Shown here: positions 7,488-7,736 of the stretch, piece by piece | Position numbering within the stretch: the first letter of the stretch is position 1 | Layout of the letters: every line of letters starts with the position of its first letter | Origin: Limnohabitans sp. Hippo3 | GTDB taxonomy: Bacteria; Pseudomonadota; Gammaproteobacteria; Burkholderiales; Burkholderiaceae_C | DNA length: 64,000 nt | NCBI RefSeq assembly: GCF_003063665.1 | Contig: NZ_NESF01000008.1 | Location: 1-64,000, forward strand | Reading direction: 5' to 3' | Position numbers and translations under genes: made by a program | The notes under the pieces: generated by a model | Seen by the model: the letters and a program-made list of their open reading frames with translations, nothing else | What the model was told of the DNA's origin: nothing | The model's database searches: none

Positions 7488-7516
7488 AAAAAAAACCCCC
7501 GGCCAGGGGCCGAGGG
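7488..7516 (-). terminator. Intrinsic terminator on the minus strand upstream of hemJ
   Basis: Read on the minus strand: a GC-rich stem (7497-7504 paired with 7508-7515, loop 7505-7507), then eight T (7495-7488). The 7499/7513 pair is G-U on the minus strand but C-A on the plus strand, so the structure belongs to the minus-strand RNA. No protein gene lies between it and the divergent hemB start, so it most likely ends the small RNA annotated at 7488-7587. Confidence 0.8.
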
Positions 7517-7587
7517 TGGGAAGCCCTTTGGCGTTACCGCGTCAGGGCCCCGCTCAGGGAGGAAAAGCGGGAGGCAGCAAGCTGCCC
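7488..7587 (-). ncRNA. Putative structured sRNA with an anti-Shine-Dalgarno loop
   Basis: About 100 nt read on the minus strand between hemJ and hemB. In order, 5' to 3': a GGCAG-CUUG-CUGCC hairpin (7586-7573); a perfect CCCGCU/AGCGGG stem (7571-7566 with 7554-7549) exposing the loop UUUCCUCCCUG; a GCCCU/AGGGC stem (7548-7544 with 7527-7523) enclosing a small GCG/CGC hairpin; and an intrinsic terminator with eight U. A weak sigma-70-like promoter lies upstream (TTGTTA 7622-7617, 17 bp, TAAATT 7599-7594). A pyrimidine CCUCCC loop is what trans-acting sRNAs use to pair with ribosome-binding sites. The identity is not recognised and the function is inference. Confidence 0.6.
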
Positions 7588-7736
7588 AGGGCGAATTTAT
7601 CAAATAACAAAACCATTAACAAGTTGAATTTTGGTTTTTATGGTGGTTTTGTTGGTTGTCGCCTGCGCGCCATGACCAGACCCCTGGGGGCCAAGGCCGC
7701 TTTGGCTTGAGCGCGACTTCAGGCACAATTTTCGAC

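Follow-up and report, generated by a model that had tools for sequence, protein, structure and literature searches.

Between hemB and a gene for a HemJ-like membrane protein, the 64,000-nt stretch of Limnohabitans DNA analysed here (the window) contains a spacer that a first-pass annotation read as an unannotated small RNA (sRNA), acting in trans through a CCUCCC loop and perhaps tied to haem or oxidative regulation by its location. Does the spacer encode such an RNA, is the RNA already known, under which promoter would it be made, and what might it act on?

The predicted transcript and its fold

Four consecutive stems on the minus strand lead into an intrinsic terminator (Table 1), just as the first-pass annotation had described them; the run of eight U (7495–7488) directly follows the terminator hairpin. 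The transcript start at 7587 was placed from the −10-like box, with the 105 nt of ncS04 of Burkholderia cenocepacia as a comparison for length. A 107-nt minus-strand stretch folds with −53.9 kcal/mol (z = −2.77), and 2 of 200 shuffles did equally well. Several lines agree with the minus strand as the RNA strand: one pair of the terminator stem that is U·G on the minus strand would be A·C on the plus strand, the plus strand folds more weakly (−46.3 versus −53.5 kcal/mol), and the Rfam match described below lies on the same strand.

The stem of hairpin 2, CCCGCU/AGCGGG, is perfect and encloses UUUCCUCCCUG; in the minimum free energy (MFE) structure, one extra closing U·G pair leaves UUCCUCCCU as the loop. 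The bases CCUCCCU have an unpaired probability of ~1.0, so the claim that a perfect stem exposes the CCUCCC loop holds; the next G and A lie within the stem in the MFE structure.

Table 1. Features in and around the spacer, in window coordinates
Feature	Position	Strand	Basis or remark
Predicted primary transcript of the anti-hemB sRNA	7488..7587	-	100 nt, four hairpins, −53.5 kcal/mol
Match to Rfam RF02837 (anti-hemB)	7488..7574	-	58.9 bits (gathering score 49.5), E = 3.3e-11
−35-like TTGTTA, σ70 type	7617..7622	-	exact or near TTGTTA-N17-TAAATT, 16 of 17 Limnohabitans loci
−10-like TAAATT	7594..7599	-	six bases upstream of the predicted start
Hairpin 1 (5′ hairpin), outside the Rfam model	7572..7587	-	covariation, 66 sequences
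Hairpin 2, stem and loop near-invariant	7549..7571	-	fold and alignments
CCUCCCUGA segment: anti-Shine-Dalgarno loop and two closing bases	7554..7562	-	95 of 97 loci
Hairpin 3	7523..7548	-	fold; pairing conserved in the alignment
Intrinsic terminator hairpin and U8 tail	7488..7517	-	sequence and fold
hemB, porphobilinogen synthase, divergent from the sRNA	7737..8741	+	PF00490, 470.5 bits; NF006762, 516.4 bits
HemJ-like membrane protein (UPF0093), downstream of the terminator	7007..7435	-	PF03653, 147 bits; TIGR00701, 109.4 bits (cut-off 138.05)

A member of the anti-hemB family

When the window was scanned with Rfam 15, a single match rose above its gathering score: RF02837, “Burkholderia RNA 7 (anti-hemB)”. 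The observation is therefore confirmed, beyond chance, by a match on the same strand (E = 3.3e-11) to a family that passes its cut-off in 196 of the 300 Burkholderiales genomes searched (235 of 300 have a match at E ≤ 0.001). Judged by this match, the element is a Limnohabitans copy of the anti-hemB RNA, and the RNA itself is not new. What stands of the earlier interpretation is a terminated minus-strand small RNA with an anti-Shine-Dalgarno loop, conserved in Burkholderiales; the word “unannotated” has to go, and the suggested link to haem or oxidative regulation is not supported (see below).

The B. cenocepacia J2315 member of the family, ncS04, is a 105-nt RNA with a 3′ end confirmed by RACE; it is included in a Northern panel and is said to bind Hfq, and its level shows no significant change in seven columns of a qPCR table (PMC5688073). 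Its gene is flanked by BCAL0264 and BCAL0265, with the orientations ← → ←, the evidence given there being co-purification with Hfq (PMC4603805). The name anti-hemB also appears in a table of a Burkholderia pseudomallei paper (PMC3521395); in PMC6515984, it denotes an antibody, not an RNA. Our search of the literature turned up neither an assigned regulator nor a proven target for the family and, among open-licence papers, no link between anti-hemB and σE.

The window RNA shares with RF02837 and ncS04 a full-length match over the gathering score, the loop, divergence from hemB, a similar length, and the U-rich tail. It differs in its Limnohabitans-type promoter, its third hairpin, and its terminator loop. 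The RF02837 model begins at hairpin 2, and the 5′ hairpin, although present in the family, is missing from it.

The next-best Rfam family, RF02278, was rejected because its 24.6 bits fall below the gathering score, 50. This family, the Betaproteobacteria toxic sRNAs (ncS27 and bdhR1, with the related Bordetella S17), likewise combines an intrinsic terminator with anti-Shine-Dalgarno stretches rich in C and U (PMC5688073, PMC11722255). Its RNAs are described as double-hairpin (PMC5688073), whereas the window RNA has four hairpins. A separate, proper RF02278 toxic-sRNA gene is present, as a single copy, in the same genome (L058, at G000:C4:19250-19311).

Distribution and structural conservation

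Among 60 relatives, RF02837 scores over its cut-off in 44 and has a match at E ≤ 0.001 in 45. We examined 97 loci: 57 taken from the best matches, including the window itself, an extra copy (L004), and a near-identical pair (L056/L057), and 40 hand-picked for family breadth. Weak homologues are under-represented in this sample, and because the genomes are related, locus counts are not independent. Two families of loci recur below, f1 (the window's own) and f32 (Burkholderia-like), both named by resemblance to named loci.

In a structure alignment of 66 sequences (at most two per family, plus the window), each pair of the 5′ hairpin is kept in 43–66 of the 66, and one of these pairs takes compensatory forms, A-U, G-C, and G-U among them. 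Hairpin 3 and the terminator vary in sequence and mostly retain their pairing. Compensatory pairs are thus kept among Burkholderiales members, as had been expected by the first-pass annotation, which had proposed this comparison. Hairpin 2 is nearly unvarying in both stem and loop, with CCTCCCTGA in 95 of the 97 loci. A set of 150 loci has the loop in 148, a count that is biased because 53 of them, out of 80 named hemB loci, had been matched by an expression containing the loop; one stem pair in this set is C-G in 134 loci and T-A in 14. The remaining 27 of the 80 named loci, Achromobacter, Comamonas testosteroni, and Delftia included, gave no match to the expression within 600 nt of hemB.

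One Limnohabitans genome, G013, has six matches to the RNA family (L270–L273 are among the loci): four of them exceed the cut-off, another scores 45.3 bits, and the last, at 35.3 bits, lacks the loop. Two RNA copies in this genome, with starts 184 nt apart, lie beside what appears by eye to be a recombinase-like frame. Elsewhere, at locus L143 (G167), the RNA match and an integrase-like protein (again by eye) have starts ~200 nt apart; mobile elements may make use of the RNA locus.

Genomic neighbours and the question of haem

We found hemB in 77 of the 97 loci, on the opposite strand and divergent from the RNA in every case. The distance from the Rfam match to the hemB start is 75–255 nt in 76 of these loci and 1,445 nt in one. 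Among named hemB genes, the one closest to the window's is from Limnohabitans radicicola (97%). The 20 loci in which hemB was not found comprise 17 with ~1.5 kb of sequence on both sides, two with short flanks (L023 and L164), and the extra copy L004. A constant divergent arrangement on opposite strands is what would be expected if the RNA acted on hemB, e.g., through interference between divergent promoters or antisense pairing. We nevertheless consider such an action highly improbable: the RNA would be transcribed away from hemB, the distances seen in the 77 loci leave no overlap with hemB coding sequence, and loci where hemB was not found nearby mostly keep both the loop and the promoter type. 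Antisense pairing with hemB was rejected on the direction of transcription.

The other neighbour is the hemJ-like gene, whose product in the window is a strong UPF0093 match that falls under the HemJ equivalog cut-off. This gene is on the same strand as the RNA, with 52 nt from the U tail to its start codon, and the RNA-hemJ pair is kept in loci of f1, so that the element could be read as a cis-acting attenuator or leader whose terminator is read through under some signal. However, those of the 97 examined loci that lie outside f1 retain the RNA with its terminator, yet their flanks yielded no hemJ homologue. Conversely, eight Limnohabitans loci (L275–L281 and L283) lack the RNA although hemB and hemJ are adjacent in them; these loci come from ten Limnohabitans genomes searched with hemB, nine of which had given no earlier RNA match. 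In addition, the 3′ end of ncS04 is confirmed by RACE, and its downstream neighbour is oppositely oriented (PMC5688073, PMC4603805). A hemJ leader, which we regard as extremely improbable, was rejected because the RNA is not conserved together with a downstream hemJ: neighbours vary, and hemB-hemJ loci exist without it. The same two observations argue against an indispensable positional role in haem metabolism, and the haem or oxidative link that had been drawn from location is not upheld.

A σE-type promoter in most relatives

In most of the other sampled families, the RNA is preceded by an element of the form GGAACTT-N15/18-TCTNA, which is the form of RpoE (ECF02) promoters. Scored out of 11, with dinucleotide shuffles as the expectation, the element reaches 10–11 in 54 of the 97 loci, all of them among the 72 outside f1 and f32, against 0.32 expected, a chance figure that is partly post hoc because GGAACTT/TCTNA was first noticed within the first 57 of the same loci. 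A score of at least 9 is reached by 62 of the 72 loci (3.2 expected, with the same reservation), representing 36 of 40 families and always with the element 15–25 nt before the Rfam match; the other 10 score below 9. Among the 36 later-fetched loci outside f1 and f32, 24 score at least 10 and 28 at least 9. The loci without hemB fit the same picture, with 13 of 17 scoring at least 9. The exact core, GAACTW-N16/17-TCT, is present in 41 of the 97 loci (0.1 expected from mononucleotide shuffles); it does not occur on the reverse strand or within the 90 nt downstream. In 52 of the 62 σE-type loci (e.g., L003), versus 6 of the 35 others, the terminator has a second C-rich loop, CCCCTT or similar.

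Bordetella bronchiseptica SigE transcribes from Escherichia coli rpoHP3 (PMC3490749). In our data, the core GAACTW-N16/17-TCT also precedes rpoE itself: of the 30 best-scoring rpoE loci, 16 have it upstream (0.07 expected) and 14 lack it. This core was chosen only after the full motif had failed to show enrichment there. Indeed, only 5 of the 30 score at least 9 for the full motif (2.0 expected), and none scores 10, because most of these elements end in TCTNT rather than TCTNA.

These results bear on which sigma factor reads the element. GAAC-type −35 boxes are read by many ECF factors, several genomes encode many RpoE-like proteins, and rpoE itself shows no enrichment of the full motif in front of it, all of which would suit an ECF sigma factor other than RpoE. 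We judge this to be unlikely, given the core motif in front of rpoE at 16 of 30 loci and the way in which the presence of the RNA tracks the presence of RpoE (see below). With RpoE as the preferred reader, a σE-type promoter in most other sampled families makes an ancestral envelope-stress sRNA probable, as a prediction from sequence rather than a demonstration.

The exact full motif, sought genome-wide in four genomes, gave two matches, both at the RNA (G267 and G090), and none in G003 or G041, against 8 for the reversed control; a looser σE pattern was rarer than its reversed control in all eight genomes searched. As neither count exceeds its control, a wider σE regulon is not supported by pattern searches.

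If the promoter is read correctly, the RNA resembles the σE-dependent sRNAs of other bacteria (MicA and RybB, ErsA, and FoxJ) in that its synthesis would depend on a sigma factor for envelope stress. Neither MicA nor RybB is among the Rfam matches of the window. CT_532, a reported MicA homologue, is described as unchanged in an rseA mutant.

The predicted Limnohabitans promoter and the lack of a canonical RpoE

At the window's own locus (L025), the best σE-type score is 8 of 11 (shuffle mean, 6.9), and a σ70-like element is found there instead. None of the 21 f1 loci scores above 8. The TTGTTA/TAAATT element, in the exact or a close form, ends 19–22 nt before the Rfam match in the 16 of 17 Limnohabitans loci that have it.

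Of 150 genomes of the order, 132 have a canonical RpoE (TIGR02939) above the cut-off; of 36 Limnohabitans genomes (the window's and 35 more), none does, and 35 have only weak matches, the best at 70.4 bits versus 236. With the RNA counted as present at E ≤ 2e-10, a limit set for this comparison, 103 of the 150 genomes have both RpoE and the RNA, 29 have RpoE only, 2 have the RNA only (the window's genome, G000, and G068), and 16 have neither (Fisher p = 5e-8, an indication only, as the genomes are related). G068 combines a perfect promoter with no RpoE over the cut-off, in a genome that is 92% complete. For Limnohabitans, the lack of a canonical RpoE together with a housekeeping-type promoter makes it probable that the RNA is constitutive.

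Loss of RpoE alone does not explain the change of promoter. G084 (f1) and G152 (f32) have RpoE and no σE-type promoter at the RNA, and G185, which has RpoE, scores 9, as does G272 (both f32), but with the element 31–37 nt from the RNA. By eye, the Burkholderia RNA has a σ70-like promoter, which would fit the unchanging level of ncS04. Taken together, the upstream sequences suggest that the RNA was ancestrally driven by σE and moved to an ordinary promoter in the window's lineage.

Mode of action and candidate targets

The mechanism that we propose starts from an independent transcript of ~100 nt, divergent from hemB and with its own terminator, as the sequence and the example of ncS04 indicate; in the window, it would be driven by the predicted σ70-type promoter. 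With Hfq, whose gene is present in the window's genome, the invariant CCUCCC loop would pair with the Shine-Dalgarno regions of several mRNAs and block their translation. Ancestrally, the RNA was probably among those by which the envelope-stress response lowers the synthesis of selected proteins. We consider this explanation as a whole (an RF02837 sRNA, pairing in trans with Shine-Dalgarno regions, an ancestral σE promoter, and a σ70 promoter in Limnohabitans) to be probable.

Action in trans by pairing is plausible and would parallel that of the C/T-rich Bordetella sRNAs CT_433 and CT_521, whose RIL-seq targets contain motifs resembling Shine-Dalgarno sequences (PMC12235514), and that of S17, which represses BP2158 (PMC11722255). 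CT_521, considered as a possible counterpart of this RNA for its C/T-rich seed, lies beside rpoH (PMC12235514), whereas L170 and L171 (family f5) lie, by eye, beside cytochrome c4-like or engB-like frames.

Candidate target sites were defined as CAGGGAGG or TCAGGGAGG located 4–10 nt before an ATG. In five genomes, there were 5–15 sites per genome (0–4 for the reversed control), 58 in all, of which the 30 that came with loci were inspected; a set of twelve genomes had 0–6 per genome, and all 25 sites were inspected. Many sites precede only very short frames. Candidates recognized by eye include a LivF-like ABC ATPase in the window's genome and a porin-like protein in G299, and blastp among the 34 candidate proteins of at least 60 residues found no common protein family.

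That no shared mRNA target emerged could be accounted for if hairpin 2 were mainly a binding site for a protein, or a sponge site, instead of an mRNA-pairing loop. The pattern of conservation would suit this as well, hairpin 2 being near-invariant even in its stem, whereas hairpins 1 and 3 and the terminator vary with their pairing mostly kept. Such a role seems quite unlikely to us in view of the exposed loop, which is complementary to the Shine-Dalgarno sequence, and of the C/T-rich Bordetella sRNAs, which contact such sequences in RIL-seq (PMC12235514).

Keeping to mRNA pairing, we lean, with modest confidence, towards a broader reading in which anti-hemB is a general σE sRNA of Betaproteobacteria, an analogue of MicA and RybB without sequence relation to them that acts through its near-invariant Shine-Dalgarno-pairing hairpin. 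Family f1, the Burkholderia-like family, and apparently f18 would have been rewired, and Limnohabitans would have kept the RNA without a canonical RpoE. What is new is the prediction that an orphan RNA family takes part in the σE response in a large part of the order and that its promoter was rewired in the window's lineage. A σE-type promoter in 36 of the 40 sampled families outside f1 and f32 yields a testable prediction of when the RNA is made. If the prediction is true, Betaproteobacteria would have a widespread envelope-stress sRNA, and Limnohabitans would be a case of an sRNA retained without its sigma factor.

Elsewhere in the window, just after a CorA-like gene, positions 9943–10179 contain three tandem 79-nt repeats, the second and third being 86% and 78% identical to the first.
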